NCBI RefSeq assembly: GCF_001693275.1
Contig: NZ_CP016477.1
Coordinates: forward strand, 1,178,001 to 1,242,000
Source of the DNA: Picosynechococcus sp. PCC 7117
GTDB lineage: Bacteria > Cyanobacteriota > Cyanobacteriia > Cyanobacteriales > MRBY01
Reading direction: 5' to 3'
DNA: 64,000 nt
The position numbers and the translations under genes were made by a program. This document shows, one piece after another, positions 42,210-61,901 of the stretch (its first letter is position 1; the number at the start of each line of letters is the position of its first letter). A model generated the notes under the pieces. That model did not search any database and was not told the DNA's origin. It saw only the letters and a list, made by a program, of their open reading frames with translations.

Positions 42210-42743
42210 ATGAGCTTTGCTTGCATCGGCCGACAGCATTTAAGTCACCTGGCGATCGCCACGACTTTACTAACAGGACTCACTGGCGCGATTTACCAAT
42301 CCACAGCTCAGGCCCAGGCCGCCTATGGTAGCTATGTGGGTGCTGGGGCGAGCGTTGGCGTTTCCTCCGACTGGAACGGCGAAGGTCAACAACTCAGTGC
42401 TGTTTTGGCGGCCCGCTATAAGTTTCTGAAATTACCTATTTCCCTGCGGACCCAAGCCTTTATCGGTTCTGGTAGTACCGCCATTGTGCCGACCATTTCC
42501 TATGATGTGCCCCTAACCTGGCAACTCGATGCCTATGTGGGTGCTGGTTATTCCTTCGCAACCGGAAACAACCCTTCCCCCGTCGGCGATCGAAACACCT
42601 TGGTGATTCAACCGGGGCTTGATTATGCACTGCCCAACGGCAATACGGTGCTCTTTACCAATGCGGTATTTGCCTTTGATGCCTATGAAGGTAAAAATGA
42701 AAAGGCCGTTGCGCTCCAAGGAGGGTTAGGTCTCCGCTTCTAA
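42210..42743 (+). CDS. Small outer-membrane beta-barrel-like protein
   Basis: A GAGGAG ribosome site precedes the ATG at 42210. The 177-residue product has a signal peptide (LAIATTLLTGLTGAIYQSTAQA) and then alternating polar/hydrophobic strands with many glycines and aromatics (YVGAGASVGVSSDW, AYVGAGYSFATGNN). It ends in LQGGLGLRF with a terminal Phe, the usual outer-membrane assembly signal. It is probably an eight-stranded barrel of the outer membrane; function unknown. Confidence 0.75.
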   Translation: MSFACIGRQHLSHLAIATTLLTGLTGAIYQSTAQAQAAYGSYVGAGASVGVSSDWNGEGQQLSAVLAARYKFLKLPISLRTQAFIGSGSTAIVPTISYDVPLTWQLDAYVGAGYSFATGNNPSPVGDRNTLVIQPGLDYALPNGNTVLFTNAVFAFDAYEGKNEKAVALQGGLGLRF

Positions 42744-42808
42744 ACGGCAACCCGTGGCTTTAAAAGTACAATTGAACCGTATGTTAGGCGATCGCCAACC
42801 GAGACGAA

Positions 42809-43273
42809 ATGAATAGTTGTGTATTAATGGCGCGCATCCTAGGGGAACCAGAACTGCGCTATACCCCCGACAATACCCCCCTGGCTCAGATCACCATCGA
42901 ATTTCCGGCGCTCCGGGAGGGAGACCCCGCTTGCCGACTCAAGGCTGTAGGTTGGGGCGATAACCTCAGCCAAGACATCCAGCAAAATTACCACGACGGT
43001 GATCAAGTGATCTTGACGGGACGACTGACGATGAACACCATCGAACGACCCGAAGGCTTTAAGGAAAAGAAGGCAGAGTTAGTGATTTCGCAAATCCAAG
43101 CTATTGGTGCTGGTCTAGGCCCCACCTCCCCTGGAACGACCATGGCCCCTTCTGCTTCGACCTCACCCGTTACCCCCAGTAATGTGGTGCCTATTAACCC
43201 CATGGCTCCTGCTCCTAGTCCTGCCCCGGCTCCCAGTGAACCGGAACCGAACCTTGATGACATCCCGTTTTAG
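42809..43273 (+). CDS. ssb: Single-stranded DNA-binding protein
   Basis: The 154-residue protein has an N-terminal OB fold (VLMARILGEPELRYTPDNTP, LKAVGWGDNLSQDI, VILTGRLTMNTIER). A Pro/Ala/Ser-rich linker follows, then the acidic tip LDDIPF that recruits repair and replication partners. The OB domain is less like the E. coli form than usual, as is common in cyanobacteria. mnmE starts 3 bp after its stop, so they form an operon. Confidence 0.9.
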   Translation: MNSCVLMARILGEPELRYTPDNTPLAQITIEFPALREGDPACRLKAVGWGDNLSQDIQQNYHDGDQVILTGRLTMNTIERPEGFKEKKAELVISQIQAIGAGLGPTSPGTTMAPSASTSPVTPSNVVPINPMAPAPSPAPAPSEPEPNLDDIPF

Positions 43274-43276
43274 ACT

Positions 43277-44659
43277 GTGAACCTAGGCGATACCATTGTG
43301 GCGATCGCCAGTGCCGTCGTCCCAAACCAAGGCAGCATTGGCATTGTCCGTCTATCTGGCGCAGCGGCTCTCCCCATTGCCCGTCAACTCTTTCAAGCCC
43401 CTGGTCAGCAGACCTGGGAGAGTCACCGCATTCTGTACGGCTATATCCGTCATCCCCAAACCCAAACGATTGTCGATGAAGTGCTGCTCCTGCTGATGCT
43501 GGCCCCCCGTTCCTTCACCGCTGAAGATGTGGTGGAGTTCCACTGCCATGGGGGCATTATTCCCGTGCAGCAGGTGCTACAGCTTTGTTTGGGGGCTGGG
43601 GCGCGGTTGGCGACGCCAGGAGAATTTACCCTGCGCGCCTTTTTGAATGGTCGCATTGATCTCACCCAGGCCGAAAGTGTGGCGGAACTGGTGGGGGCAA
43701 AATCACCCCAATCGGCCCAGGTGGCCCTAGCAGGCATCCAAGGGAAACTGGCCCAACCGATCCAACAACTCCGGGGTCAATGTTTAGATATTTTGGCGGA
43801 AGTGGAAGCCCGCATTGATTTTGAAGACGATTTACCTCCCCTGGATGAGCCGCAAATTCAGCGGGATCTGACCCAGGTGCTCGCAACAGTTGAACAAATT
43901 CTCCAGACCTCTGACCGGGGCGAACTATTGCGCACGGGGTTAAAAGTAGCGATTGTGGGCCGTCCCAATGTGGGGAAATCGAGCCTGTTAAATGCCTGGA
44001 GTCGCAGCGATCGCGCCATCGTCACGGATTTACCAGGGACAACGCGGGATGTGGTAGAGTCCCAGCTTGTGGTGCAGGGTATCCCGGTACAGGTATTGGA
44101 TACGGCGGGCATCCGGGATACAGAGGATGCCGTGGAAAAAATTGGTGTTGCCCGTTCTCTCGCCGCTTCCCAACAGGCGGATTTGATTTTGTTTACCATC
44201 GATGCGGCGGTGGGATGGACAGCGGCAGATCAAGAAATTTTTCAGCGAATTGTGGCCACAAAAGCCAATCAACCCTTAATTCTGATCCTTAATAAAATTG
44301 ACATCGGCCAACCGGAGGCCATTGAAATTCCGCCCCAAGTGCAAGGGGTCGTCAAAACAGCGGCAGCCCAGCACCAGGGTGTGGATGAATTGGAAACGGC
44401 GATCGCCAATTTGGTGCAAGCGGGAAAAGTGGGAGCCACCGATCTCGATTTTGCGATTAATCAACGGCAAGCCGCGGCTTTGACCCAGGCCCAACAAGCT
44501 CTCCTTCAAGTGCAAAGCACCATTGCCGAAGGGTTGCCCCTGGACTTTTGGACAATCGATCTGCGTAGTGCGATCCAGGCCCTAGGGGAAATTACCGGCG
44601 AAGGGGTGACTGAATCGGTTTTGGATCGGATCTTTAGCCGTTTTTGTATCGGGAAATAG
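43277..44659 (+). CDS. mnmE: tRNA modification GTPase MnmE
   Basis: The GTG at 43277 gives 460 residues. The N-terminal folate-binding domain starts [20 protein letters not shown], and the central helical domain has [14 protein letters not shown]. The G domain carries [14 protein letters not shown] (G1), [12 protein letters not shown] (G2), [10 protein letters not shown] (G3) and LNKIDIG (G4), and the protein ends in FCIGK with the family's C-terminal Cys. With MnmG it modifies wobble uridine in tRNAs. Its stop is 2 bp from the convergent binding-protein gene. Confidence 0.95.
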
Positions 44660-44661
44660 GG

Positions 44662-45993
44662 TCAGGTGCGGATTTTAAACTGGTTAAGATAACTGGCCAC
44701 TTGGTTCGGTAAAAAAGCCCGTTGGTCAATGAAGTGAATCTCTGACTTAAAAGACTCAGGCGGTAAACGCAACCCAAATCCCTGGGCGATCGCCCCGTAG
44801 GGTTCTGTAGGATAGGCTACTGCTACCAGTTCACGGGCATTTTGGGGATATTGCCGCAGCTCAAAATGTCGCCAGCGGACCATCTGGGTGAGGAGCCACA
44901 GGCCATGGGATTGCCAGCAATAATTAGCCTGGTCGGGGGCCGTAATCCGTCGCCCTTGGTCGAACCAAATGGGACTATCCCGCCGGGCAATGGGGCGATC
45001 GCCGTCTCCCCCGTAGAAATATTGGCCACTGAAGAGGGCGGTGAGGGCGGCGGGATCAAGGTCGAGGTTACTGGCTAGGAGAGGGCCAATGGTAGCCGCG
45101 TTGGTGGGATCTTGGCAATATTGGCAACCCTGGAGGGTGGCGGCAATGAGAGCCTTAGCTGTATTTGGGTTTTCTTCTCGCCAGCCTGCACTGGTGGTAA
45201 TCACCGGCCCCGGGTGGCCCTGCCAAATATCCCCTGAAAGGTATTGGATAAAACCAGAATCGTTGGCGATCGCCTCTTGTCCCCAAGGTTCTTGGCTGCA
45301 GTAACCTTGGATCAACCCTGCCTGCAATTTATGACGCAACTCCGTGGGCGCAAAGGTGACTAATTCTAAATCTCGATCTGGATGGAAACCCAGGGCCGCC
45401 CACCAATAGCGATAAAGATAAGCCGTTGTGCTGTAGTCGTGGTCTACCCCAAAGGTTTTTTCCGGTAAAGCCCGCACATAGTCCCGGTAGGCCGCCGCAA
45501 ATTCTGCAAAATTCGCATAGTCGATGCCAGAACGAATATTATCGGCCCAGGTCTGTTGGCGGCCACAAAAAACACCGCCGTGGCGATGGATCTGCATCAA
45601 CGCGACCAGATCAACCCTAGGACTTTTGAGCTGATAAATCAGTGGTGTCGAAAAAGAGGTAATCGCCGCATCAAAACGCGATTCTAGTAGCCCCTGTTCC
45701 ACGGCCTGTTGATCCACCTGGGGATACAGCTCAACTTCCAGGCCATACTGCTCAAAAAAGCCTTGGGTGAGGGCCATCAGCCAGGGGGCGATCGCCAAGT
45801 CCGGCACATAACCCAGGGTGAGGGCTTGCTTTTCCGGGGCACTCAGATCTAATACCGGCGGAGTTGATTCTAAGTTGGCTTGCTTCGCAGATCTTCCTGG
45901 CAGACGAACGGTATCAGGGAGTCGATTGCAAGCAGTGAGACCATAACCCCAGGCAGCAAAGGTTCCGTATTTGAGCAGGTGGCGGCGTTTCAT
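44662..45993 (-). CDS. NrtA/CmpA-like ABC substrate-binding protein
   Basis: From ATG 45993 (MKRRHLLKYGTFAAWGYG) the protein has 443 residues, with a twin-Arg-poor but basic signal and a lipobox-like LTAC. The body matches the nitrate/bicarbonate/sulfonate-binding group: LTLGYVPDLAIAPWLMALTQ, FFEQYGLEVELYPQVDQQA, FDAAITSFSTPLIY and GYCSQEPWGQEAIA. NrtA and CmpA bind nitrate and bicarbonate; the ligand here is not clear. No permease or ATPase gene is adjacent, so it is an orphan binding protein or a sensor component. Confidence 0.82.
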   Translation of the reverse strand: MKRRHLLKYGTFAAWGYGLTACNRLPDTVRLPGRSAKQANLESTPPVLDLSAPEKQALTLGYVPDLAIAPWLMALTQGFFEQYGLEVELYPQVDQQAVEQGLLESRFDAAITSFSTPLIYQLKSPRVDLVALMQIHRHGGVFCGRQQTWADNIRSGIDYANFAEFAAAYRDYVRALPEKTFGVDHDYSTTAYLYRYWWAALGFHPDRDLELVTFAPTELRHKLQAGLIQGYCSQEPWGQEAIANDSGFIQYLSGDIWQGHPGPVITTSAGWREENPNTAKALIAATLQGCQYCQDPTNAATIGPLLASNLDLDPAALTALFSGQYFYGGDGDRPIARRDSPIWFDQGRRITAPDQANYCWQSHGLWLLTQMVRWRHFELRQYPQNARELVAVAYPTEPYGAIAQGFGLRLPPESFKSEIHFIDQRAFLPNQVASYLNQFKIRT

Positions 45994-46071
45994 AGGCAAA
46001 AATACAGGGAGGCTCCCAAATTTTACGGGTTCGGTTTGGCGATCGCAATTTTCTGTGACGGTTCCACCATC

Positions 46072-46106
46072 AAAAAATCCCCAGGGCAGCGAGGAGCACT
46101 GGGGAT
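46072..46106 (-). terminator. Rho-independent terminator of dxs
   Basis: On the minus strand an 8-bp perfect stem (ATCCCCAG with CTGGGGAT; arms 46077-46084 and 46099-46106) with a 14-base loop is followed by a run of T (46072-46076). It lies 26 bp beyond the dxs stop and before the binding-protein start. Confidence 0.85.
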
Positions 46107-46132
46107 CAAAATCCAAGCACAGTCAATTTTGC

Positions 46133-48049
46133 TTAAACGGTGGTGGTTGTCTTGGCGGCGTCTTTCTGGAAAAATGCCGCCCGAATGGATTCGGCCATCT
46201 GGGCTGGGGTCAACCCGTGGGCCGCTTTTGATTCCGCTGGAGTTGCATGATCCACAAGCACATCTCCAATGCCAAAGCGTTTTACGGGAACAAGCACATC
46301 ATGATCCTGGAGCGTTTCACAGACCGCAGACCCAAAACCACCCATTAAGCAACCCTCTTCAAAGGTGGCCACTTTACCAATTTGCTTGGCGAGGGGCGCA
46401 ATGAGTTCAGAGTCCAGGGGTTTCACAAAACGGGCGTTGATCACCGTGGCGCTAATGCCGTGTTCACTGAGAATTTCGGCCACCTGGAGGGTCGAGTGCA
46501 CCATGGCACCATAGCCGATCAGGAGAATGTCGTCACCATTGCGCAGGATTTCTCCTTTACCGATGGGCAGGGGTTCCCAGCCGTCTTCCATTAACGGTGC
46601 ACCAATGCCACTCCCCCTGGGATAACGCATGGCGATCGCCCCGTCCGTGTATTCAATCCCCGTGACGAGCATCCGTTGCAGTTCAGCTTCATCCTTGGGA
46701 GCCATCACCACAATATTGGGAATCAGGCGGAGATAGGCAATGTCATACATCCCCTGGTGGGTCGGCCCGTCAGCACCGACGATGCCCGCCCGGTCAAGGC
46801 AGAAAAAGACTGGTAATTTTTGAATACAAACATCATGGATGATTTGGTCGTAGGCCCGCTGCAGGAAAGTCGAATAAATCGCCACCACTGGCCGCATTCC
46901 TTCACAGGCGAGGCCCGCTGCTAGGGTAACGGCATGTTGTTCGGCGATACCAACGTCGATGTACTGTTTTGGTAATTTCTGTTGGAGCTTATCTAACCCG
47001 GTGCCAGTGGCCATTGCCGCTGTAATCCCGACAATTTTGGGGTTGTTTTCCGCGAGGGTGGTCAGGGCATGGGCAAAGACCTTGGAATAGCTCGGTGGGG
47101 TTGGTTTCTTCGAGGGGAATGCTTTGCCTGTGGCCAAGTCAAAGGGTTTCTGGGCATGGTAGCCCACTTGATCTTTTTCGGCGATCGCATAACCTTTGCC
47201 TTTAACTGTGGCGACATGGACGAGGGTCGGGCCTTTAGCCTTGTGGGCCTGTTTAAAGGTGCGGATCAACTCTTCGAGGTTGTGGCCATCCACGGGGCCA
47301 AAATATTTAAAGCCTAATTCTTCGATGACGGCGCCAACTTTTGAGACAGCCAAGCGTTTCATGCTGTCCTTGAGCCGTTCCATCTCTGGGGTGAGGGAGT
47401 CCCCAAGGAACGGGAGATGCTTAACCTGTTCTTCGAGGTTATCGGTCAAAAACTGAACGGGATCACTGAGGCGAACTTTATTGAGGTATCGTGAGATGGC
47501 TCCCACATTCGGGGAAATAGACATTTCATTGTCATTGAGAACCACCATTAAATTCGTATCGGGTAAATGACCCGCATGGTTGATGGCTTCGAGGGCCATG
47601 CCGCCGGTCAAGGCACCATCACCAATGACTGCCACACATTTAAAATCTTCTTCCTTGGCATCCCGTGCCAATGCCATCCCTAGCGCTGCGGAAATACTGG
47701 TCGAGGCATGGCCAGCACCAAAATGATCAAACACATTTTCACTGCGCTTAAGGTAGCCAGCTACCCCATCCTTTTGCCGGAGGGTGTGGAATTCGTTGTA
47801 GCGTCCGGTGATCAACTTATGGGGATAAGCCTGATGACCGACATCCCACACCACCTTGTCGCGATCGAGATCAAGGTTTTGGTAGAGGGCGAGGGTTAGT
47901 TCAACCACCCCTAAACCAGGGCCGAGGTGGCCACCACTTGCGGCAATCGTCTGGAGGTGTTTTTCGCGAATTTGCCGGGCAATCTCTTCCAACTGACGGA
48001 CGGTCAAGCCGTGGAGTTGGTTCGGATGGGTAATTTCACTCAGGTGCAT
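46133..48049 (-). CDS. dxs: 1-deoxy-D-xylulose-5-phosphate synthase
   Basis: The 638-residue thiamine enzyme makes DXP from pyruvate and glyceraldehyde 3-phosphate, the entry and main control step of the MEP pathway. Marks: [32 protein letters not shown], the ThDP motif [19 protein letters not shown] ... LNDN, the [15 protein letters not shown] site with the catalytic Glu, and [15 protein letters not shown]. Length is standard. It lies 187 bp downstream of the olefin synthase gene on the same strand. Confidence 0.96.
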
Positions 48050-48236
48050 GGGTGTTTCTAGAGAGCGATCTTATAAAGGGGTCTAGTTCTCAGGATATCA
48101 GGTCTAACAATTTTAATCAGAAGATCCCGGTTAGTCCGGATGATCCCGTGGGGTTGTGTGGGAATCTTGGTCAAGGTTCCACAGATGTTTAGGATCTAAT
48201 ATTTACGGGTTTTCGGACTGCACTTTGCAATATTTT

Positions 48237-51200
48237 TTATTGTGTTTTGGGTACAGGAGTCTGGAGTTGTTGATAAACAATTTGGGCGATCGCCTGGGGA
48301 TTTTCAAAGTGGAGATTATGGCCGCCGGCAACCGTCAAACGTTGGGCTTGGGGGAGAGCCGCTTGGATCGCCTGGAGATCAGCGGGACGGTTAAATTCAC
48401 TCTGGTCGCCATAGATGAGGGTGATCGGCGCTTGGATATCTTTGAGTAGGGCGAGATAACGTCGCCGGCTAATGCCATTGAATTCAATGCCTGCCCGGGT
48501 ACGGAGGAAAGCATCCCAACGCCACTGCACACCTTTTTCGACGGGTTTGGTGCTGCGCTGGGTGAGGAACGCCGAGAGGTCTTTGGGCAGTTGGGGCGTG
48601 GCTTGGCGGAGGCGGCGGGCGGCCACTTCTAAGCTGGGGAAGGTCGGGTGCTGGGGGGGCGCGGCGAGGTAATCGAGATGGGTCGTCAGGTGATTACCTG
48701 TTTCAGCGTCGTCGATGTCGTTGGGAACAATGGTTTCGACAAGGATCAACTTTTCTACCTGGGTTTGGCGAATGCCTGCATACATGGCACCGATGATGGA
48801 ACCCATGGAGTGGCCCACCAAGGTAAAGGGGCGATCGCCTAATTGTTTAGCAAGGGCATCTACGTCAGCCAAAAAATCAAGCATGCTGTAGGACTGGGCA
48901 TGGGCGGATTTGCCGTGACCACGCAGGTCTGGGGCCACAACCCAATAGCCCTGGGCCGCCAACTGGGGCGCGATGAGTTGCCAGGATGCCCCCTGTTCGA
49001 GGATGCCGTGGAGAAGTAGCACCAATGGTTGGTGGCGATCGCCCCACTCACAGAGACAGGTTTCTAAACCGCGCACTGTCACGAACCGCTCCACCATGGG
49101 GGGCAAGGATTGGGTCTGGGGTGTTAGCTGGGGTTCCTGGGGGAGATCGTAAGCAAACGTTTCGGCCAACTGGATCGTATCCGGCTGGAGAGCAGCGGGT
49201 AGGGTAATCGAGCGCCATTTGTCGGCAAGGGCCGGATCAATGGTTTTGTGCTGGAGGAAATTGGGATCCCCGACGCCCATGGATTGTTGGTGGAGGCCAT
49301 CGGTGAGGCGATCGCCGCTGTAGGGATTAAGGAGGGCTTCGTCAAAGTCCACCCCCAGGAAATCACAAATATCTGTCAAAACTTTGCGGGGGTCACGAAC
49401 GAGATCCTCGTAAATCACCTGGAGATATCGATCCGCAGCGACCATGTGACCTAGGTCTAGAATATTGCGGTTGCTGGTGCGCCAAATGGACTCCGCGAGG
49501 GCGTAGGGATTTTGCTGCTCGGCCCCCAGCAGTTTATCCATCCGCAATCGGGTAAAGGATTCAATCACCGCGTAGGGATGGCGTACCAGATGGATATATT
49601 TGGCCTGGTCAAAGAGGATTTCGCTGTGGTCTAGGATGTGGCGATCGCTGCCGTAGCTGGGAGATTTGTCAATGAGTAAACGTTGTCCCGCTCGCCGTTG
49701 GAGATAGGCATAGATTTCGGCAATGGGTGTATTCGCTTCGACCCACTGGTTGACCTTCGCCTGGCTTGCCTCTGGGGTGAGATTTTCTAGATCCATTAAG
49801 GCCCGTTGTAACCCTTCGCCGAGGTGGGATAGACCCAATTCCTGGTGGCGATCGCCCATGGTTTCAAAGGGGAGCAAATGCAGCTCTGGGGGCGAATATA
49901 GCCCCGGATGTCCAGCTAACATCACCCGCAGCAACGTCGAACCCGACCGGGGGCTAGAGAGGATAAAGGCAATGGGATTCGGGTTTTTGTGGTCAGGTTT
50001 TTGCCACGGTTTTTTCGTTTTGACCGAAAGGCTTTGGGAGGGAATCGCTGCTGTCGCCGTTGCTGCTTCGGAATCATGGGCCTTGGTGAATTCCGCCGCT
50101 AGATAGGCCGTCAACACATCCAGTCTGGGCCGCTCGTAGATTTCCCTGGGGTACAACATCAATTGTAAATCCTGCTTGAGGCTGGCGATCGCCTCCATGA
50201 TCATCAGCGAATCCATGCCCAGATCCAACAAACTATCGTGGCTGTGAATTTGCTCAATTTCTAACTTGAGGATTTGCGCCACAGACCGCCGCAGATAATC
50301 CAGCAGATAGTCAGCCCGTTGGGAAGCTTCTAGGTTAATTAATTTGTCAAAAATCGAAGCCGTTGGGGGCACAGCCTCAGCAGAGGGAATAACAGCGGCA
50401 AAGTAATGGGTTTTGGCAAATTCGGGGAACTGTTTGGCCAGGTTTTGCCAGTCCGGTTTAAAGACCCCCATTTCCCCCTGGGCGCCTAAGACCTTTTCGA
50501 GAATTGTTAGTCCCTGGGGCGGCGGCAGCCACGCTAAATTTTGGTTGCTGAGGGAGTTGGCCATTCCCCCTTCGGCCCAAGGCCCCCAATGGATCGCCAG
50601 GGCGGGTAAACCTTGGGCTTGTCGATATTGGGCGATCGCCGTCATGCCCCGGTTTGCGGCGGCATAATTCCCTTGTCCCGGTGAGCCGAGCACCCCTGCC
50701 ACGGAGGAAAACAACACAAAAAAATCCAGATCGAGCTTTTGACTATGGCGGTGCAGATGCCATGTCCCTTTCATTTTGGCGGCGGCGACGGTCTGGAACT
50801 TTTGCCAAGTTTGTTGTTGCAGCAAACCATCGGCTAAGGTGCCCGCCGCATGGAAAATTCCTTTGACGTGGGGGTAAGTTTGAAACAGCTTTGCCACCTG
50901 GGCTGCGTCGGCTAAATCGCAGGGATAAACCACCGCATTGGTCGGTAACGTGTGCTGATCCGCCGCCGGAGCGCGCCGGCTGACGAGAATTATTTTTTCT
51001 GCTCCTGCTGCGGCTAACCATTGGGTAATTTTGCGGCCAATGGCCCCCAGTCCCCCTGTCACTAGATAGGTCTGTTGGGGTTGAATCTGGAGATTTTTCT
51101 GGGGCAGTGGCGGTTGCTTTTTAAGTTGTGCCCCGTAGAGTTTTTGCTGCCGCACGGCCAACTGCTGCACCTGTCTTTGTTGGCAAATCTGGGCAAAATT

Positions 51201-54200
51201 TGGCAGGCTGTCATCGACATCAATAATTCCCCCCCATAATTCTGGATGTTCGAGGGCGATCGCCTGGGCGAGGCCCCATAATCCCCCTTGGGCAAATCCG
51301 GCGACCGCATCGGTTTCAAGCACCCGTTGGCTCTGGTGGGTCACGAACCAGCAGGGAACCGCGATCTTTTGTTGATACAGGGTTTGGATCAGTTGGAGGG
51401 CGAAGCCACTGGTTTGCTTTTGAATTTCATCTAGGTCTTCTGGGTCTTCCTCTGGGGGACACAGGTAAAGGATACCCGCTAGATTTTGGGAGCCGACGTG
51501 AGTAAATAAATTATCCAACGCATCGGCAGATACTTCCCAGGGGGCAGCCGTCGGAAAATGATTGCTTTGGCCGAGATACACCCGCTGGGCGTTTTTAAAT
51601 TGGGCTTCAATGGGCTGGTGAGAATGATGGTGATCGCCCAAGATTAACCACAACTTAGCCGACGGTTCAGGGGCCGATACCAAAGTGTCCAGGGGCATCC
51701 ATGCCACCTGATACAACCAATCATTGAGATCGTCAGGGGCTGGGTTCACAGGTTCGGTCTCAACTGTTTGCCAAGAGCCTTGATTAAACCAATATCGCTG
51801 CCGTTGGAAGGGATAGGTGGGCAGGATCAGTTTCCGGCGGCGATCGCCAGCTTCCACGGTCTGCCAGTCAATGTTTAGCCCTTGCTCATACAGTTTGCCG
51901 AGACTGGTTAAGATTTCCGGCCAAGGCTCACTATGGGGGCGTAAACTGGGCAACCAAACCGCTTCTTGTTCAGCTAAGCAATGGCGTCCCATACTCAGGA
52001 GCACTGGTTTTACGCCGATTTCGAGATAAACATTTGCCCCTGACTGGGCCAGGGTTTGGATGCTCTGGACAAATTTGACAGGTTGCGAAACGTGCTTAAC
52101 CCAATAGTCGGCCTGGGCAATTTCCGCTTCAATCTGGCCGCCCGTGACATTGGAAATGAGCGGGATACGCGGCGGGTGGAAGGTAATTTGTTCAGCAATT
52201 TCCCGAAACTCTGCCAGCATGGGGGCCATCAAAGGGGAGTGGAAAGCATGGGACACCTTAAGGGGTTTGGTTTTGATTCCTTGGCTTTGGAGTTTGTGAA
52301 TACTGGCTTCGAGGCAGGGGGTCTTTCCTGATAGCACCAAATGGGAACCGTTTTCGGCTCCGACGGTTAAATGCTCCGATAGGTAGGGTTTAATGACGGT
52401 TTTATCGGCAAAGACCGCCGCCATACTGCCATTGCTGGGGAGGGCGTGCATCAGTTTGCCCCGGGCCGTAATTAATTTCATGCCGTCTGCCAGGGAAAAT
52501 ACCCCCGCCAGACAGGCCGCGACATATTCGCCGACGCTATGGCCCATGCAAAAGTCTGGCGTCACGCCCCAGCTTAACCATAGTTGGGCGATCGCATATT
52601 CAACGGCAAAGAGTAGGGGCTGGGTATAGACGGTTTCGTGGACGAGGTCAGGGTTATGGTCGCCGTATAACAGGTCGGTGAGGGCAGGGGCTTCGGGGGA
52701 ATAGGTCTGCCAGAGGCGATCGCACTCATCCAGCACCTGCCGAAACAGTGAGCTGGTTTGGTACAGTTGTTGCCCCATGCCGTAGTATTGGGAACCTTGG
52801 CCCGTGAACAAAAAGGCAATTTTTGCGGGGGAACTGAGGCGGGGTTGGGCCAGAAAATCTTGATTGAGAGTTTGTTGTAAATCGGCGACTTGTTTAAAGA
52901 CAAAAAAACGACGTTCCTTGAAAGGCGATCGCCCGGTATTGGCAGACAAACAGAGATCGCGTGGGTCAACGCTGGGATGTTGGGCCAGATAGTCTCCATA
53001 GCTTTTTTGCAGGGCATTTAAGGCCTGGGAATTTTTTGCAGACAGGGTCAGCAGATGCCAAGGGCGGTCTTGGGTAGCCGGAGGAGCAAGGGGAGATTTT
53101 TGTTGAGGATAGTCCCCCACAATCACGTGGGCATTGGTGCCACCAAACCCAAAGGAACTTACCCCAGCAAACCGTTTTTGTGACCCGCCTGACCAAGGCT
53201 GATCTTTGCTTGCAATGGTCACTAAACCGTCTAGATCAATGCGGGGATTAAGCTGCTTAAAATGCAAATGTTGGGGAATCATCCCATGCTCTAGGGACAA
53301 AATCACCTTGATTAAGCCCGCGATGCCCGCCGCTGCCTCGAGGTGACCAATGTTTGTTTTCACGGAACCCACCACACAGGGCTGTTCCCGCTGCGCCGTT
53401 TGTAAAACTGCTTTCAGGGAATTAATTTCAATGGGATCACCCAGGGGCGTGCCGGTGCCGTGGGCCTCTAGGTAAGCTAAATCGGCGGCGGTAATACCGG
53501 CTTGGGCCAGGGCTTGGCGAATAACGGCCTGTTGCGATCGCCCGTTGGGAGCCGTCAAACCGTTACTGCGTCCATCTTGATTCACCGCCGAACCGTGGAT
53601 CACCGCGAGAATATTATCCCCGTCCCGTTCTGCCTGGGCCAGGGGTTTGAGGAGGACGACCCCACAACCTTCGCCCCGCACATAACCATCAGCCCCGGCA
53701 TCAAAGGTCTGGCAGCGGCCCGTCTTACTCATCATGCCCGCCTGGGTAAAGGTCTGGGTCACATCGGGAGTCAAAATCAAATTTACCCCAGCGGCGATCG
53801 CCAACTCCGATTCGCCGTTGATTAAACTTTGACAGGCCAAATGAACCGCCACCAGAGAAGAGGAACAGGCTGTATCGATGCTCAGAGAAACGCCCCGGAG
53901 ATCGAGGAAATAAGACAGACGATTCGCAGCAATACTGTGGGCGTTGCCCGTCCCCATGTAGGGATTGATCGGATTGTTTTCCCGCACCTGCAACTGGGCA
54001 TAATCACTATTACTAATACCGACAAAAACCCCCGTTTGGGAATGGCGTAAACTTTCTGCCGGAATATTTGCCCGTTCCAAGGCTTCCCAGGTTACTTCTA
54101 ACAGTAAGCGTTGCTGGGGATCCATTTGTTCCGCTTCCCGGGGGGAAATGCCAAAAAATTGCGGCTCAAACTGGTCAATATTTTCTAAAAAACCACCCCA

Positions 54201-56402
54201 TTCTCCCGTGGCCCAGCGAGTTTTAAGGGGGCGAACTCCATCTTTACCTTGACGTAATAATTCCCAAAAAGCTTCGGGGTTGTCGGCTTGGGGAAAACGA
54301 CAACTGAGACCCACCACGGCAATTTCTTTGCCCTGAATTTTCGGCACCTGTGGTATTTTCTCTAGCGCTTGATTACCCTGAACCAAAAACTGAGCCAGGG
54401 TGCGAATGGTCGGATAATCATAGGCCAGGGTGGGGTCTAATTTTCGACCTAGCCAATCCTCTAAGTCGGCTGTGACCTGTACTGCTTGTACCGAATCCAG
54501 CCCATAACTGGCAAAGGGTTCCGTTTCGTCTAATTGTTGGGGCGTAATGCCGAGGCGATGGGCAATATTATCCTTAAGCCAGGCTTCAATTTGCTGTTGG
54601 TGCTGGTCAGGCTGGGGAAAATTCGTTGATGTTGTCGTAGAAGGGGTAACGGCTTGTGTCCCAATTCCTTTTCCTTCTTTTTGGTGGCTGGGTTGCCACT
54701 CCCCAACCACAGCCAAGCTTCCGTCTAGAAAACCAGCTTTGCAGGCATGGCGACGAATCTTCCCGCTGGATGTTTTGGGAATGCTACCGGGTTTAATAAA
54801 ACAAATGGCCTGGGGTTGCAGTTGATGTTCGGCGGCGATCGCCCCACGAATAGCTTGGGCTACTGCCGCGACATTTAATTTGCGGGCATATTTGCGCTCC
54901 ACTTCCTGGACAATGACTAGCTGTTCTTCCCCGTCAACGTCTATTGATACAGCGGCTCCGGCTCCCTGTCGTAAAGCGGGATGGGCCACTTCGACGGTTA
55001 ATTCAATGTCCTGGGGATAGTGGTTGCGCCCCCGGATAATCAGTAGATCCTTTAAACGGCCCGTAATATACAGTTCGCCACCTTGCAAAAAACCCAGATC
55101 GCCCGTGCGTAAAAAGCCCATTTCTGCACCAACGTTTCCCTGGAATTGTTGCTGGGTGAGGTCTGGTTTTTGCCAATAGCCCTGGGCAACACTTTCGCCC
55201 TTGACCCATACTTCGCCAATTTCACCGACGGCACATTCTGTTAAGGCCTGGGGGTCAACAATTTTGACAATTTGGTCACCAATCACCTCACCACTGCCGA
55301 CCAAAGTTACCGTTGTTTCTGTCCCCTGGGCAGGGCGGACTTGGTTGGCTTCGATACCTTGTTTGCTGACAGTAATTTCCTGGGGAAGCTGGGCATGGCC
55401 ATTACCACCGGAGACAATCAGGGTGGTTTCAGCCATACCATAGCAGGGATAAAATGCTGATTTTTGAAAGCCTGCTGTAGCGAAGGTTTTCGCAAAATTT
55501 TCGAGAGTCACAGCGCGGATCGGTTCGGCCCCGGAAAAAGCTAGTCGCCAACAACTCAAATCGAGTTCTCTGATTTGTTCCGGGGTAATTTGGCTGGCAC
55601 AGAGATCATAGGCAAAATTCGGCGCACCGCTGGTGGAAACCCGATAATCATTGATCGCCTTTAGCCACCGAAAAGGTCGCTGCAAAAAGGCCACGGGAGG
55701 CATTAAAATTTGCGTTGCTCCCACATAGATGGGCTGTAAAATCCCACCGATCAAGCCCATATCATGGTAGGGCGGCAACCAGGAAACGCCCATGCTGGCC
55801 TCTGTATCCTGGAATCCTTGGTTAATCAAGCCGGAGTTGTGGATCAAATTGTGGTGGGAAACCATCACTCCTTTAGGATCGCCCGTGGAGCCACTGGTGT
55901 ATTGCAAAAAAGCGAGATCTGTGCCGGAAATGTTCGGTTTTTGCCAGTTTTTTCCTGAACTTAATTCAATTTGATCTGTAGCCAAACAATGAAAGTCTGT
56001 GCCTTCTAAAGCTTCGAGGCGATCGGCAATTTTATCTTTAAGTTCTGTTGTGGTAAGGGCAAATTTTGCCTGGGCATCTTGGATAATGCTATGGAGGCGG
56101 TCAAAGGATTTATTCGGCCGTGGTGGGTAAGCTGGCACCGCAACAACACCAGCATACAAACATCCCAAAAAGGCACCGATAAACTCTAGACCCGGTGGAT
56201 AAAGTAATAATGCCCGTTGCCCTTGGGCCTGGTTAGCTTGCAAAAAAGCGGCGATCGCCTGGGCTTTTTGGTCTAATGCTTCGTAGGTCAGGGCCGCAGA
56301 TTCCGTTTCGCCATCAGCCAGAAAACTAAACACGGTTTTCCGCGCCTGAAGTTTAGCTCTGTACTGGAGCAGATCGACGAAATTTGCAAATTGACCAACC
56401 AT
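48237..56402 (-). CDS. ols: Olefin synthase, modular type I polyketide synthase
   Basis: One 2721-residue polypeptide. Domains in order: fatty acyl-AMP ligase (1 to about 585; YTSGSTGDPKGVMVSH), ACP1 (Ser637 in YGLDSVQ), ketosynthase (about 695-1120; Cys846 in DTACSSS), acyltransferase (about 1180-1500; Ser1289 in GHSVGEY), ketoreductase (about 1775-1960; GGLGAIG near 1783), ACP2 (Ser2065 in LGMDSLM), sulfotransferase (from about 2146; SSPRSGSTLL) and thioesterase (Ser2532 in GHSMGS). The known Ols reaction activates a fatty acid, extends it once, reduces, sulfates the beta-hydroxyl, then hydrolyses and decarboxylates to a terminal alkene. No dehydratase or enoylreductase is present. Confidence 0.95.
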   Translation of the reverse strand: MVGQFANFVDLLQYRAKLQARKTVFSFLADGETESAALTYEALDQKAQAIAAFLQANQAQGQRALLLYPPGLEFIGAFLGCLYAGVVAVPAYPPRPNKSFDRLHSIIQDAQAKFALTTTELKDKIADRLEALEGTDFHCLATDQIELSSGKNWQKPNISGTDLAFLQYTSGSTGDPKGVMVSHHNLIHNSGLINQGFQDTEASMGVSWLPPYHDMGLIGGILQPIYVGATQILMPPVAFLQRPFRWLKAINDYRVSTSGAPNFAYDLCASQITPEQIRELDLSCWRLAFSGAEPIRAVTLENFAKTFATAGFQKSAFYPCYGMAETTLIVSGGNGHAQLPQEITVSKQGIEANQVRPAQGTETTVTLVGSGEVIGDQIVKIVDPQALTECAVGEIGEVWVKGESVAQGYWQKPDLTQQQFQGNVGAEMGFLRTGDLGFLQGGELYITGRLKDLLIIRGRNHYPQDIELTVEVAHPALRQGAGAAVSIDVDGEEQLVIVQEVERKYARKLNVAAVAQAIRGAIAAEHQLQPQAICFIKPGSIPKTSSGKIRRHACKAGFLDGSLAVVGEWQPSHQKEGKGIGTQAVTPSTTTSTNFPQPDQHQQQIEAWLKDNIAHRLGITPQQLDETEPFASYGLDSVQAVQVTADLEDWLGRKLDPTLAYDYPTIRTLAQFLVQGNQALEKIPQVPKIQGKEIAVVGLSCRFPQADNPEAFWELLRQGKDGVRPLKTRWATGEWGGFLENIDQFEPQFFGISPREAEQMDPQQRLLLEVTWEALERANIPAESLRHSQTGVFVGISNSDYAQLQVRENNPINPYMGTGNAHSIAANRLSYFLDLRGVSLSIDTACSSSLVAVHLACQSLINGESELAIAAGVNLILTPDVTQTFTQAGMMSKTGRCQTFDAGADGYVRGEGCGVVLLKPLAQAERDGDNILAVIHGSAVNQDGRSNGLTAPNGRSQQAVIRQALAQAGITAADLAYLEAHGTGTPLGDPIEINSLKAVLQTAQREQPCVVGSVKTNIGHLEAAAGIAGLIKVILSLEHGMIPQHLHFKQLNPRIDLDGLVTIASKDQPWSGGSQKRFAGVSSFGFGGTNAHVIVGDYPQQKSPLAPPATQDRPWHLLTLSAKNSQALNALQKSYGDYLAQHPSVDPRDLCLSANTGRSPFKERRFFVFKQVADLQQTLNQDFLAQPRLSSPAKIAFLFTGQGSQYYGMGQQLYQTSSLFRQVLDECDRLWQTYSPEAPALTDLLYGDHNPDLVHETVYTQPLLFAVEYAIAQLWLSWGVTPDFCMGHSVGEYVAACLAGVFSLADGMKLITARGKLMHALPSNGSMAAVFADKTVIKPYLSEHLTVGAENGSHLVLSGKTPCLEASIHKLQSQGIKTKPLKVSHAFHSPLMAPMLAEFREIAEQITFHPPRIPLISNVTGGQIEAEIAQADYWVKHVSQPVKFVQSIQTLAQSGANVYLEIGVKPVLLSMGRHCLAEQEAVWLPSLRPHSEPWPEILTSLGKLYEQGLNIDWQTVEAGDRRRKLILPTYPFQRQRYWFNQGSWQTVETEPVNPAPDDLNDWLYQVAWMPLDTLVSAPEPSAKLWLILGDHHHSHQPIEAQFKNAQRVYLGQSNHFPTAAPWEVSADALDNLFTHVGSQNLAGILYLCPPEEDPEDLDEIQKQTSGFALQLIQTLYQQKIAVPCWFVTHQSQRVLETDAVAGFAQGGLWGLAQAIALEHPELWGGIIDVDDSLPNFAQICQQRQVQQLAVRQQKLYGAQLKKQPPLPQKNLQIQPQQTYLVTGGLGAIGRKITQWLAAAGAEKIILVSRRAPAADQHTLPTNAVVYPCDLADAAQVAKLFQTYPHVKGIFHAAGTLADGLLQQQTWQKFQTVAAAKMKGTWHLHRHSQKLDLDFFVLFSSVAGVLGSPGQGNYAAANRGMTAIAQYRQAQGLPALAIHWGPWAEGGMANSLSNQNLAWLPPPQGLTILEKVLGAQGEMGVFKPDWQNLAKQFPEFAKTHYFAAVIPSAEAVPPTASIFDKLINLEASQRADYLLDYLRRSVAQILKLEIEQIHSHDSLLDLGMDSLMIMEAIASLKQDLQLMLYPREIYERPRLDVLTAYLAAEFTKAHDSEAATATAAIPSQSLSVKTKKPWQKPDHKNPNPIAFILSSPRSGSTLLRVMLAGHPGLYSPPELHLLPFETMGDRHQELGLSHLGEGLQRALMDLENLTPEASQAKVNQWVEANTPIAEIYAYLQRRAGQRLLIDKSPSYGSDRHILDHSEILFDQAKYIHLVRHPYAVIESFTRLRMDKLLGAEQQNPYALAESIWRTSNRNILDLGHMVAADRYLQVIYEDLVRDPRKVLTDICDFLGVDFDEALLNPYSGDRLTDGLHQQSMGVGDPNFLQHKTIDPALADKWRSITLPAALQPDTIQLAETFAYDLPQEPQLTPQTQSLPPMVERFVTVRGLETCLCEWGDRHQPLVLLLHGILEQGASWQLIAPQLAAQGYWVVAPDLRGHGKSAHAQSYSMLDFLADVDALAKQLGDRPFTLVGHSMGSIIGAMYAGIRQTQVEKLILVETIVPNDIDDAETGNHLTTHLDYLAAPPQHPTFPSLEVAARRLRQATPQLPKDLSAFLTQRSTKPVEKGVQWRWDAFLRTRAGIEFNGISRRRYLALLKDIQAPITLIYGDQSEFNRPADLQAIQAALPQAQRLTVAGGHNLHFENPQAIAQIVYQQLQTPVPKTQ

Positions 56403-56598
56403 GTATGCCTTAGCAACTCCTGTGAATGGAAATTCTGGACTCCGTATCCTAGCAATTTTTACGAATACCCACGGGCCATAGCCTAGTTAACCATATTAAA
56501 CCGTGAGTTCCCTCCCCACGGTAAATCCTCCCAAAATCCGCCGTTCCTTCGATTATGGCGGGCCTGGTTTCAACTGATTTGAGTGTAAAAGCCCTAGG

Positions 56599-57498
56599 CT
56601 ACGCTGACTGTTGTCGCCCTAACCAATCGAGTAAATAGCCGTTGACTAATGCCGGAGCTTCATCCTGGGGACAATGGCCGACATTATCGAGGGGAATAAA
56701 CTCAATCTGAGGATATTGGGCGACAAGGGCACGGCCCAGATCAACTGGTTCCCACGGATCCGCTGTTCCCCACAAAACTGCCGTGGGGCAATGCAACTGG
56801 GGCAGCAGGTCGTCCGGGAGTGGCCCCTGGGAATAGCTCGTAAAGGCCAGGAAAACCGCTGCCGCCCCTGGGTCCTGGGCGGGGGTCAGGATCAGCTCCA
56901 CCAACTCATCGGTAATCGCTGTTTTGTCTCGGTAGGCCTGGGCTAAAATTTTGCGGATTGTTTTCGGCTGGGCCAATTGCTTAAAGAACAAGGAACCGAG
57001 GGGGGTTTGGGTCAAGAGTTTTTGGAAGAGGGGAACGCCCCAGCGTTGATAAAAAGGTGCTTTTAAAAGATTGCGCTCATGGAACAGCCGCAGGGAAAAA
57101 TTGAGTGCCACAACCCCCCGCACCCAGTGGGGATAGGACACAGCCGCCTGCATGACAACGACACAACCAATGGAATTACCAACTAGAAAAGCCGGTTCAC
57201 CAATGATTTCAGCACAGAACGCCTTAATCTGGGTGGCCCAAGTTTCAAAAGTGTAGTCCGCTTCAACCTCCGGTTGGGGTTTTGCCGATTTCCCAAAGCC
57301 CAGTAAGTCGATGGCATAGCAGCGGTAATGTTCCCCTAAAACCGGAAGATTTTTGCGCCAATGACCGGCCGAGGCCCCAAAGCCATGGACGAAAAGAACG
57401 GGCAGCCCCTGGGTGCCCCACTGACGATAGTTAATATTGAAGCCGTGCCATTGCCAGCTGTAATCGGTATGGGGATGAGCGGGGGAAGTAATGGTCAT
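56599..57498 (-). CDS. Alpha/beta hydrolase fold protein
   Basis: The 299-residue protein has the oxyanion loop VLFVHGFGASAGHWRKN, the nucleophile elbow VGNSIGCVV (Ser109), a likely acid in WGTADPWEPVD and His in NVGHCPQDEAP. It is typical of soluble bacterial and plastid alpha/beta hydrolases; the substrate is unknown. It lies 196 bp upstream of the olefin synthase and 39 bp after yidD on the same strand. A short inverted repeat (ACCGTG with CACGGT near 56500-56522) with TTTAAT after it on the minus strand might weakly separate it from ols. Confidence 0.85.
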   Translation of the reverse strand: MTITSPAHPHTDYSWQWHGFNINYRQWGTQGLPVLFVHGFGASAGHWRKNLPVLGEHYRCYAIDLLGFGKSAKPQPEVEADYTFETWATQIKAFCAEIIGEPAFLVGNSIGCVVVMQAAVSYPHWVRGVVALNFSLRLFHERNLLKAPFYQRWGVPLFQKLLTQTPLGSLFFKQLAQPKTIRKILAQAYRDKTAITDELVELILTPAQDPGAAAVFLAFTSYSQGPLPDDLLPQLHCPTAVLWGTADPWEPVDLGRALVAQYPQIEFIPLDNVGHCPQDEAPALVNGYLLDWLGRQQSA

Positions 57499-57537
57499 GG
57501 TGAGCGATGGATAAAACCGAAATGAGGAACAAATGTC

Positions 57538-57780
57538 CTAGGGTGCGTTGTCTAAATCGTGATGGCAAAGATGGGGTACCGGATCATAACCCCCAGGGTG
57601 AAACGGGTGACAGCGGCCAAGGCGCTTTAGGGCGAGCCAACTGCCCCGGAGTACACCAAAGCGTTCCACGGCTTCGAGGGCATATTGGGAACAGGTGGGC
57701 TGAAAGCGACAACTGGGGGGGAATAGAGGGGAAATCCAGCGACGGTAGCCTTTGATGCTCCAGAGGATTAAGCTTTTCAT
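57538..57780 (-). CDS. yidD: Membrane protein insertion efficiency factor YidD
   Basis: The 80-residue protein shows the YidD pattern [33 protein letters not shown] and [12 protein letters not shown], with the three conserved cysteines. It aids YidC-dependent membrane protein insertion. It usually sits next to rnpA and yidC; here it follows ftsH by 5 bp instead, so it is likely translated from the ftsH transcript. Confidence 0.92.
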
Positions 57781-57785
57781 GGCAT

Positions 57786-59699
57786 TTAGGCAACGGAAGC
57801 GGTTTTTTGGAGGTCGATGGTTTGACCAAGGGCTTCGTTAACGAGACGACTAAAGTCTTCGCCTTCGATGGTTTCTTCTTCGATGAGACGATCCACCAGG
57901 CGATCGACAAGTTGACGATTGTCCCGAATAATTTGCTTGGCAGTTTCGTAGCACTCGTTGATAATTTCGCGCACCTTGAGGTCAATGCGCTGGGCGATCG
58001 CCTCGGAATATTCAGGCCGCTCCCCAAACCAATCATTTCTGAGGAAAACTTCACCCCGATTAGTTTCTAGGGCAAAGTGACCCAGTTCTGACATCCCAAA
58101 CTTTGTCACCATTTGACGGGCAATGTTCGTGAGCATTTGGATATCCTGGGAGGCTCCAGAGGTGATTTCATCGTAGCCAAAGACAATATCCTCGGCGGCG
58201 CGTCCCCCCAGGGCCACGGCGATTTGGGCGCGGAATTGGGCTTTGGTGGTCAGACCCTGTTCTTCGTTGGGGGTAAACCAGGTTAAACCTTGGGCGCGGC
58301 CCCGGGGAATAATGGTGACTTTCTGGAGGGGATCGTGGTCTTTGAGGATGGTGCCAACAATGGCATGGCCCACTTCGTGGTAGGCAATGAGACGTTTACT
58401 TTTGCCATCGGTGAGGGCTGTTCCCTCCATCCCTGCTACGACCCGATCAATGGCGTCATTGATTTCGCTAGTGGTAATTGCTTCTTTGCGGCGGCGGGCG
58501 GTGAAAATGGCGGCTTCGTTGAGTAAGTTTGCTAGATCTGCCCCCGAAAAACCAGGGGTACGCCGGGCGATCGCCTCTAGATCAACATCCTCAGCGACTT
58601 TTTTATCTTGGGCATGGACTTCGAGGATTGCTAAACGCCCCAAACGGTCTGGATAATCCACAGTCACCTGGCGATCAAAGCGGCCGGGGCGCAGGAGAGC
58701 TTGATCTAAGACATCAGGGCGGTTAGTTGCGGCGATGACAATAATTCCGGAATTTCCTTCAAAACCATCCATTTCTGTGAGCAATTGGTTTAGGGTCTGC
58801 TCCCGCTCATCGTTTCCTCCACCAATGCCTGCACCCCGTTGGCGACCGACCGCATCAATTTCATCGATAAACACAAGACAGGGAGCATTTTCCTGGGCCT
58901 TGCGGAAGAGATCCCGTACCCGTGACGCGCCGACCCCCACAAACATTTCCACAAATTCCGAGCCGGAAATACTAAAAAAAGGTACACCCGCTTCTCCGGC
59001 GATCGCCTTTGCTAGGAGCGTTTTACCCGTCCCCGGTGGGCCAATGAGGAGCATTCCTCTGGGGATCTTCGCACCAATCGCCGTAAATTTATTCGGTTCT
59101 TTTAAGAAAGTGACTACTTCAGCGAGTTCTTCCTTAGCTTCCTCGACCCCAGCCACATCCTTAAACATGATCCCCGTTTCCGCTTCCATCTGAAAGCGCG
59201 CTTTAGAACGACCAAAGTTCATGGCGTTATTCTGCATACTGGCCGAGCGGCGGATAATCAGCACTAGCCCCCCGATCAGAATCCCAAAAAGCAGGAGATT
59301 GGTAAAAATGGCGATCGCCACCGAATGATCCTGGGAAGGCACCACCTCAAAGTCAACGTTATTTTCCCGGAGAGCGGCGAGGAGTTCTTGGTTATTGTTG
59401 AGGAGCTGGATAGTCTGGGCTTCTTCCTCAGTTTGCCCCCGGAGTGTGACCTGGGCCGTATTGGTTTCTGGGTCAAGGACGAAGCGATCCACATGGTTTT
59501 GCCGGATATCCTGGAGCAGCTCTCCGTAGTTCAAGGTCTCCGTCGATTCCGTTGATTCTGTCTGGGCGATCGCCGCCGCTCCCCCCCCCCACAGTAAGGC
59601 TTGGCTCAAAAGAAAATTAGCCATCCCAGCCCGCCACTTAAAACGAGGTTTGGCCTGATGCTTCTGCTTGCTCGGAAGGAGGTGACGATAGTGCTTCAT
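57786..59699 (-). CDS. ftsH: ATP-dependent zinc metalloprotease FtsH
   Basis: The ATG at 59699 gives 637 residues; the frame extends to 59852 but the added part has no family features. The protein has an N-terminal hydrophobic segment with a signal-like AAAIAQ, a lumenal or periplasmic domain and a second helix ([20 protein letters not shown]). The AAA domain has [11 protein letters not shown] (Lys226), [10 protein letters not shown] and [19 protein letters not shown], and the zinc site is HEVGH (441-445). FtsH degrades damaged membrane proteins, including photosystem II D1 in cyanobacteria. It leads a same-strand run ftsH-yidD-hydrolase-ols. Confidence 0.94.
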
Positions 59700-60180
59700 A
59701 TTTCGGAGGGACAACGACAGAGAAACTGTTCTTATTCTAGAGTTTTCCTTTCCTAATCGGGGTGCTTCCCTTGGTTTTACGCCAAAATCTCCCTCTGTTT
59801 CCCGCAAATTTCCTCGCCCAAAAGCCGTTACCAATAGCCGCTTAATCACCATGGCAAGGAATAAATTGAATCTTGATCACAGAAAAAACTCCGACTCTAT
59901 CCACAGTGATTTTTTGGCTGAACTTTCACCACCCCAAAAAAGTTTAGATCGTGACTCGCATTGTAATCCCAGACGATGGTTTAGCTTGATCTTTGGAGCG
60001 TTAAGGAAAAAAACGATGGTTGCTGTCCGTTGATAAATACAGTAGGTTAATTTTTTTTGTAATTTATTTTTGGGCTGCGGTATGGGATGGTGTTTTTGCT
60101 AAGTTGAAGCCGAGATTGTTAAAAAAAAGAACTAACCGCAATCTCGAATTTCAGTCAAAAACGGCGCAAAGACAGAAAAC
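59700..60180. promoter_or_regulatory. Divergent intergenic region between ftsH and the MscS gene
   Basis: The 481-bp stretch should hold the ftsH promoter on one side and the channel gene promoter on the other. It is AT-rich from about 60030 with T- and A-runs. A 60-codon plus-strand frame (59851-60033) has an ATG but a low-information, basic translation and no ribosome site, so I leave it uncalled. No RNA gene was recognised. Confidence 0.5.
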
Positions 60181-61818
60181 ATGAATGGGATATTCCTCGA
60201 TCTTGGTGTGGTGATCGCCGAGATTATTCTCTTTTTAATCGCGATCACAGTGGGGCAATTTTTAATTATTTTGACCCTGAAACGTCTAGCCCAATGGGTG
60301 CCAGAAAAACAAGGACAAAATCCCCTAAATTTAACCCAAAAAATCCTTAATAAATCCCTCTTCGTTATTAAGATCACCGGGGCCATAATCATTGCTGCCT
60401 TAAATAGTTATTTATTCTTTCAACAAAAATCCCCTTACCTTTATCTCCTTGATTTAATTAACGGCATCTCTCCAGAACAGTGGCAAAGGCTCGCCCTCGG
60501 TTTATTAAAAAGTGTTTTACTTCTGTTGCTCGTGAGTTTAATGATCGCTTCTCTGCGCCCACGCCTGAAACGGGCTGGCGATCGCCTCAAGGCTTGGAAA
60601 AATATCGAAGGCAATAACCACAGCTTAGATACCCTCTTTAAGGCCATTGATTTGGCGATCGCCAATGGTCTTTGGATTTTGGCCCTGGTGGTGTGCCTCA
60701 ATTTTTTGTTTGTCCCTCCGAGCATTACCCAATATTTTTATCTCGCGATCAAAGTTTATTTTTTGCTTTGTTTTGGGATCATTGCTGTGCGGGCATCGTT
60801 TTCTTTGCTGGATACTTTAGATGGTTTATCAACGGAATTTATTGCCAAACATCCCCGGTCTCCCCTGCGTTTTTATCCTCGGTTTCGTTATTTATTGGGC
60901 CTCACAAAACGCTGTTTAGAAACGGGTATTTATCTGGCGATCGCCGGGGTGATTTGTGCCCAATTACCCCTCCTCGATCACATTGCCCCCTATGCGATCC
61001 CGGCGAATCAAATTATCCTGATTATTTTTATTGCGGCCCTGGTGATCGAACTAAGCAATATCATTGTCGAAAAATTATTGTTGCGATCGCCAAACCTCAG
61101 TCCTGTCCAACAACGCCGTCGTTTAACCTTTATTCCCCTGGTGCAAAACACCGTACGCTACTGCATTTACTTTGTGAGTGGCGTTTCAATTCTCTATGTC
61201 TTTGACATTGACCCGACGCCGATTCTCGCCGGGGCTGGGATCTTGGGTTTAGCAGTGGGGCTTGGGGCGCAAAATTTAATCAATGACCTCGTCAATGGCT
61301 TTTCCATTTTGTTGCAAAATTACTACCTTGTCGGTGATTTTGTCGAAACGGATAATGCCACAGGCCTTGTCGAAGAAATGGATCTGCGGGTCACACGCAT
61401 CCGCGATACAGGGGGACGGCTACATATCATCCGCAATGGCGACATCAAGACCATTGTGAATTACTCCAAAGATTATGTGTATGCGGTAGTTTATGTTGGG
61501 GTCGCTTACGATTCAGATTTAGACCATGTGTATCAGGTTCTAGGGGATGTAGGCCACCAAATTCAAGGCTTACACCCTGATGTACTCGAACCGACCCGCA
61601 TTGATGGCCTCGATAACTTTGCCGAATCTGAACTCACCATCCGCACGGTTACCAAGGTGAAACCAGGAAAACATCTACCGGTGCAGCGCCTCCTGCGGAA
61701 GTTAATTAAAGAAGCCTTCGACCGCGAACAGATCGAAATTCCCTTTGCCCGCCGTGTACTCATCTTCAAAAATGAAGCCCCTGACCTCGATTCACTTCGA
61801 GATTTGGAAAATATGTAA
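60181..61818 (+). CDS. MscS-family mechanosensitive channel
   Basis: The 545-residue membrane protein has several N-terminal helices and a C-terminal MscS core. The pore-lining helix has the Gly/Ala pattern AGAGILGLAVGLGAQNLIND. After it come FSILLQNYYLVGDFVETDNATG (beta domain start), IRNGDIKTIVNYSKDYVYA and a cytosolic alpha/beta part. Such channels release solutes on hypo-osmotic shock. The extra N-terminal helices (about 300 residues before the core) put it in the larger MscS subgroup. The ATG at 60181 is preceded by AT-rich sequence without a strong ribosome site. Confidence 0.88.
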   Translation: MNGIFLDLGVVIAEIILFLIAITVGQFLIILTLKRLAQWVPEKQGQNPLNLTQKILNKSLFVIKITGAIIIAALNSYLFFQQKSPYLYLLDLINGISPEQWQRLALGLLKSVLLLLLVSLMIASLRPRLKRAGDRLKAWKNIEGNNHSLDTLFKAIDLAIANGLWILALVVCLNFLFVPPSITQYFYLAIKVYFLLCFGIIAVRASFSLLDTLDGLSTEFIAKHPRSPLRFYPRFRYLLGLTKRCLETGIYLAIAGVICAQLPLLDHIAPYAIPANQIILIIFIAALVIELSNIIVEKLLLRSPNLSPVQQRRRLTFIPLVQNTVRYCIYFVSGVSILYVFDIDPTPILAGAGILGLAVGLGAQNLINDLVNGFSILLQNYYLVGDFVETDNATGLVEEMDLRVTRIRDTGGRLHIIRNGDIKTIVNYSKDYVYAVVYVGVAYDSDLDHVYQVLGDVGHQIQGLHPDVLEPTRIDGLDNFAESELTIRTVTKVKPGKHLPVQRLLRKLIKEAFDREQIEIPFARRVLIFKNEAPDLDSLRDLENM

Positions 61819-61901
61819 GACTTTTGTAATAGCTGGGCTCAAAATAGGCGAAATTCAGTCTAATGGGAGCAGTAGTTGTCTAAAATCCAAGATTATTTGT
61901 C

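Follow-up and report, generated by a model that had tools for sequence, protein, structure and literature searches.

The window, by which we mean the whole stretch of 64,000 nucleotides that was analysed, contains a 2721-residue open reading frame (ORF), encoded on the minus strand, that fills positions 48237–56402 with no internal stop codon, and the plus-strand frame across the same interval is interrupted by many stops. The initial annotation had proposed a complete single-gene olefin synthase (Ols) of this length without naming a strand; the ORF was confirmed, and all six residues singled out there (Ser637, Ser2065, Cys846, Ser1289, Ser2532 and Glu2556) occupy exactly these positions in the translation, with Glu2556 24 residues past Ser2532. 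The gene and its features are as follows:

48237..56402, minus strand: ols, predicted olefin synthase, single gene (2721 aa; stop codon included)
54693..56402, minus strand: FAAL (fatty acyl-AMP ligase), aa 1–570 (PF00501; 7r7e, E=0)
54384..54608, minus strand: ACP1, aa 599–673, phosphopantetheine Ser637 (PF00550)
53058..54335, minus strand: KS, aa 690–1115, Cys846, EAHGTGT from 979, NIGHLEAAAG from 1017 (PF00109, PF02801)
51918..52823, minus strand: AT, aa 1194–1495, Ser1289, HAFH at 1385 (PF00698)
51081..51734, minus strand: predicted structural (non-catalytic) KR subdomain, about aa 1557–1774 (boundaries from an AlphaFold model)
50448..51074, minus strand: catalytic KR, aa 1777–1985, GGLGAIG 1783, LFSSVAG 1897, Tyr1913 (PF08659)
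50103..50315, minus strand: ACP2, aa 2030–2100, phosphopantetheine Ser2065 (PF00550)
49110..50039, minus strand: ST (PAPS-type sulfotransferase), aa 2122–2431, PRSGST at 2151 (PF13469)
48240..49109, minus strand: TE (decarboxylating thioesterase type), aa 2432–2721 (3qit, E=1.6e-83)
48807..48809, minus strand: codon of the TE nucleophile, Ser2532 (Ser in 86/86 aligned rows)
48735..48737, minus strand: codon of the TE acid, Glu2556 (Glu in 80/85 readable rows, Asp in 5/85)
48495..48497, minus strand: codon of TE Arg2636 (Arg in 81/84 readable rows)
48318..48320, minus strand: codon of TE His2695 (His in 84/84 readable rows)

Pfam searches and structure models gave the domain order FAAL–ACP–KS–AT–(structural half-KR)–KR–ACP–ST–TE, with Pfam E values between 1.3e-29 and 7.5e-90, far beyond chance. 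The matches span residues 14–410 (AMP-binding), 608–673 (PP-binding), 692–924 and 932–1048 (ketoacyl-synthase), 1197–1492 (Acyl_transf_1), 1778–1944 (KR), 2143–2355 (Sulfotransfer_3) and 2459–2702 (Abhydrolase_1). There are two PP-binding stretches, the best of which was located by Pfam, and the second carrier site was placed from Ser2065. The HAFH motif of the AT is, we assume, of the malonyl type. Set and order of the Pfam domains are those of Ols, as had been claimed for this single protein, and the profiles agree with the ST–TE identity, Sulfotransfer_3 being followed by Abhydrolase_1. Among the best 25 of 188 NCBIfam rows, none exceeded its own cut-off, the best being a generic type I polyketide synthase (PKS) model that scored 1431.8 against a cut-off of 1740.

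Immediately upstream of ols, and in the same orientation, lies an alpha/beta hydrolase gene at 56599–57498. A conserved operon of the two was considered and rejected: a close relative of the hydrolase (at least 69% identity) adjoins Ols in just three of 100 loci (L042, L043 and L052), some loci being cut short, and we therefore treat it, from these sequence comparisons, as a probable lineage-specific neighbour of ols. A scan for promoters and terminators returned fewer hits than did shuffled sequence. Direct repeats inside the gene are short, several of them centred on GGCGATCGCC, and nothing structural was seen among them. Palindromes of the GGCGATCGCC type recur at several sites within 48237–56402, a pattern familiar from the highly iterated palindromes of cyanobacteria.

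The whole protein was searched against the PDB, and its matches include 7r7e at residues 2–570 (top rows), the CurL structure 4mz0 at 671–1540 and 4gox at 2122–2431. We take 7r7e and 4gox to be the FAAL and the ST, respectively, of the Ols from PCC 7002. By hand count, the FAAL shares 558 of 569 aligned residues with 7r7e (11 differences, ~98%), and the ST shares 300 of 310 with 4gox (10 differences, ~97%; E=5e-202). The FAAL alignment begins at residue 2 here and at residue 4 of the 7r7e chain, which is compatible with the same start. The comparison with PCC 7002 Ols that had been suggested as a check was thus carried out on these two pieces, and both are near-identical. The published PCC 7002 enzyme has the same domain order as the present protein; a few percent of the residues differ, from which no functional difference is predictable. 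Orthology with PCC 7002 Ols was, like the domains, the key residues and the folds, directly observed, and an ST–TE match was present in all six genomes of the genus that were searched. Among the records available for comparison, plasmids of PCC 73109, 7002 and 8807 match a 15 kb plasmid stretch of the window's genome (G000) at ~95% identity over 77% of its length.

Other proteins carry relatives of the front and of the ST. The same genome encodes a second fused enzyme of 1099 aa (L032:8021-11320, minus strand, C1 ~2086-2089 kb), which combines a FAAL (53% to the Ols FAAL), a carrier protein and a class I/II aminotransferase fold, and a second FAAL of 606 aa (L032:5390-7210) adjoins it. In L033–L037, an Ols/CurM-like ST (37–39% identity) is embedded in other large proteins with no match to the Ols TE; Pfam found condensation and adenylation domains of nonribosomal peptide synthetases (NRPS) around the ST in all three examined (L033, L036 and L037), with an FkbM methyltransferase added in L033 and an ordinary thioesterase in L037. 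Stand-alone frames of ~465 aa in L038, L039, L040 and L041 have a C-terminal Ols-like ST preceded by ~160 N-terminal residues, and Pfam detected sulfotransferase families only in the two analysed (L038 and L039).

The long region between AT and KR had been suspected to include a structural half-KR, and the guess was right. An AlphaFold model of aa 1545–1985 (pLDDT 87.7, 30 sequences) was re-aligned with VIA-align 2 on the 1000 best chains from Foldseek and landed on two-subdomain PKS ketoreductases, among them erythromycin KR1 (2fr1), with which 403 residues align over model range 13–441 at an rmsd of 2.0 and a Z of 43.3; rows 1–8 differ from one another by no more than 0.8. Because the model aligns to such enzymes, the AT–KR stretch is predicted to be the usual structural KR subdomain. 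Ketoreductases that carry an LxD motif and lack the Trp characteristic of the A type are generally of the B type and give the 3R alcohol. The catalytic KR contains the LxD motif (GTLADG, 1854) and lacks the Trp, which suggests, from these motifs, a B-type enzyme yielding the 3R alcohol.

Searched separately, the ST–TE part (600 residues) matched the CurM ST (4gbm, E=1.9e-99) and the CurM TE (3qit, E=1.6e-83); with 4gox, this places the ST in the CurM/OLS type. The AlphaFold model of the TE (pLDDT 88.7, 31 sequences) retrieved the four chains of 3qit as PDB ranks 1–4 in Foldseek (TM 0.89–0.92, 48% identity), and Ser2532, Glu2556, Arg2636 and His2695 align with Ser, Glu, Arg and His of that structure, presumably Ser100, Glu124, Arg205 and His266 in CurM TE numbering. 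We understand Ser, Glu and His to form the catalytic triad of the CurM TE, and the Arg to have been given a catalytic role as well. The likeness to the CurM TE noted earlier is therefore borne out in both residues and fold. The next nearest PDB folds are PA1622-type alpha/beta hydrolases (7al5, 7al6; TM 0.82–0.86, 28–30% identity), in which an Asp aligns with Glu2556 and which, unlike the TE here, are stand-alone hydrolases without PKS or ST.

Conservation of these residues was assessed in an alignment of 91 rows, comprising the window and 90 hits from loci L032–L131, of which 86 were retained after removal of five same-contig repeats. Besides the residue counts listed above, the Ser-to-acid spacing is 24 in 84 of 85 rows and 32 in one, and the position of Ser2668 is Ser in 82 of 84 rows, with one Asp and one Gly. 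As a control for the position 24 residues past the nucleophile (Ser+24), the genome's own Abhydrolase_1 matches were taken (21 loci), which provided 17 GxSxG rows from 14 loci; the motifs were picked mechanically, so that seven loci contributed nothing and the Ser of some rows is probably not the true nucleophile. Among the 16 non-TE control rows, Ser+24 is Glu in none and Asp in four, two of the four being the same gene. The accompanying statement, which made Asp the usual residue here among alpha/beta hydrolases, did not hold in this genome. The later GxxD position of alpha/beta hydrolases lies, by topology, after beta-7; several of the controls show this motif, and the TE has GDQS there (Ser2668). 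Since no control row has it, a Glu at Ser+24 is distinctive relative to the genome's other alpha/beta hydrolases; because five of the 85 readable family rows have Asp, it is nearly, not strictly, diagnostic of this TE type.

Asp replaces the Glu in L069, L075, L079, L081 and L129, which are Ols or Ols-like TEs, and the counterpart of Arg2636 is lost in three rows, namely L126 (Thr), L128 (Leu) and the cyanobacterial L070 (Ser), the first two on contigs labelled Acidobacteria. PKS ends of the order KR–ACP–ST–TE occur on contigs with this label in L125, L126 and L128. At most, the present enzyme might have a chain-length or desaturation profile other than that of PCC 7002; more boldly, some related ST–TE ends could have diverged from the CurM scheme and might release their chains in another way. 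We regard such departures as improbable.

The KS–AT–KR–ACP–ST–TE terminus is shared with CurM-type modules, and ST and TE are both related to those of CurM, so that the gene might instead encode the final module of a larger secondary-metabolite line and place a terminal alkene on a polyketide, not a fatty acid. In other genomes such modules do come after other PKS genes, as in L047, L050, L085 and L092. CurM itself, from curacin A biosynthesis, has the ST–TE pair in common with the present Ols but lacks, in the available part of the published description, the FAAL–ACP1 front (PMC3903477), and the same source states that the OLS ST of PCC 7002 has been compared structurally with the CurM ST. 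A similar ST–TE pair in HlaB is the proposed maker of the terminal alkene of haliamide from Haliangium ochraceum, a secondary metabolite of a hybrid PKS–NRPS for which the accessible text describes no FAAL loading (PMC6274090). A terminal module of the CurM type has no FAAL or ACP1 and is preceded by PKS modules, whereas here FAAL and ACP1 are fused into the same protein, which in practice refutes such a role. By eye, no other PKS gene was recognised among the ORFs at 42000–62000, and elsewhere in the genome the KS matches, among those listed, lie in frames of 400–438 aa. Membership of a larger cluster was accordingly rejected as very improbable.

Across a sample of 386 genomes of the phylum, 25 gave an ST–TE match at E≤1e-20, and in 11 of these it spans both ST and TE at an identity of at least 50%. 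The FAAL-to-TE order is contained in one ORF in 37 of the 100 loci L032–L131, including one with its FAAL cut by the contig end, or in 35 once two repeated contigs are removed. The remaining loci are split after ACP1 (for example L094, L099 and L112), represent the termini of longer PKS lines, are truncated where the contig stops or contain no Ols. Occurrence as one or two ORFs is described for Ols in the portion of the literature consulted (PMC3903477).

The competing FAAR/ADO alkane pathway was searched for in the window's genome, and neither ADO (PF11266) nor AAR (TIGR04058) was matched there; both searches were positive in the control Synechococcus elongatus, among others. The ADO search was extended to 22 of the 25 ST/TE-matching genomes, which were picked for an ST or TE match and are not a random sample; three in which only the TE part had matched were left out (G010, G032 and G038). 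ADO is absent from all nine genomes with a FAAL-bearing Ols (G000, G081, G209, G129, G068, G185, G143, G056 and G358) and present in all 13 tested genomes in which no FAAL-bearing Ols was found. The latter include G298 and G261, where the ST–TE ends a PKS line with no FAAL seen within the 19 kb taken. This split agrees with the published mutual exclusivity of the two pathways.

That the intact-looking Ols is inactive or repurposed, its TE hydrolysing a beta-hydroxy or beta-sulfated acid without decarboxylation, has next to no likelihood: a literature search found no activity data for the strain and a sequence cannot show turnover, but 11 aligned ST–TE sequences, the present one among them, all keep the Ser, Glu, Arg and His of the TE, and nothing in the genome matched the other alkane route.

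We assign a probability of about 97% to the reading that the gene encodes the Ols of a very near relative of PCC 7002 within Picosynechococcus, converting a fatty acid to a terminal alkene. Because it is orthologous to the PCC 7002 enzyme, its most likely action, predicted by analogy, would be loading, malonyl extension, ketoreduction and O-sulfation, followed by hydrolysis, decarboxylation and sulfate loss. Each chemical step and the product in this strain are carried over from published work on PCC 7002 and CurM. The FAAL would adenylate a C18-type fatty acid and load it onto ACP1, after which one malonyl extension would take place. The KR would reduce the beta-keto group, the half-KR serving a structural role, and the ST would sulfate the beta-hydroxyl with PAPS. 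The TE would then form an acyl-Ser2532 enzyme, whose hydrolysis would be aided by His2695 and Glu2556, and the freed beta-sulfated acid would lose CO2 and sulfate to give terminal alkenes of the 1-nonadecene type. The genome has one strong match to APS kinase, for PAPS supply, and one PPTase-family match. In PCC 7002, the Ols products are 1-nonadecene and 1,14-nonadecadiene according to the part of the report available (PMC6361979).

The assignment is thus the correct reading of a known system and the expected pathway for the strain; since the pathway of PCC 7002 has already been characterised, as the accessible portions of two reports describe (PMC3903477, PMC6361979), the Ols reading itself contains nothing new. 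What the analysis adds concerns the family. For TEs of the decarboxylating type, the 86-row table shows Glu as the norm at Ser+24, with Asp in a few rows, and Ser at the later position that is Asp in many alpha/beta hydrolases. The 22-genome ADO test provides a small added check of the published non-co-occurrence of Ols and ADO.
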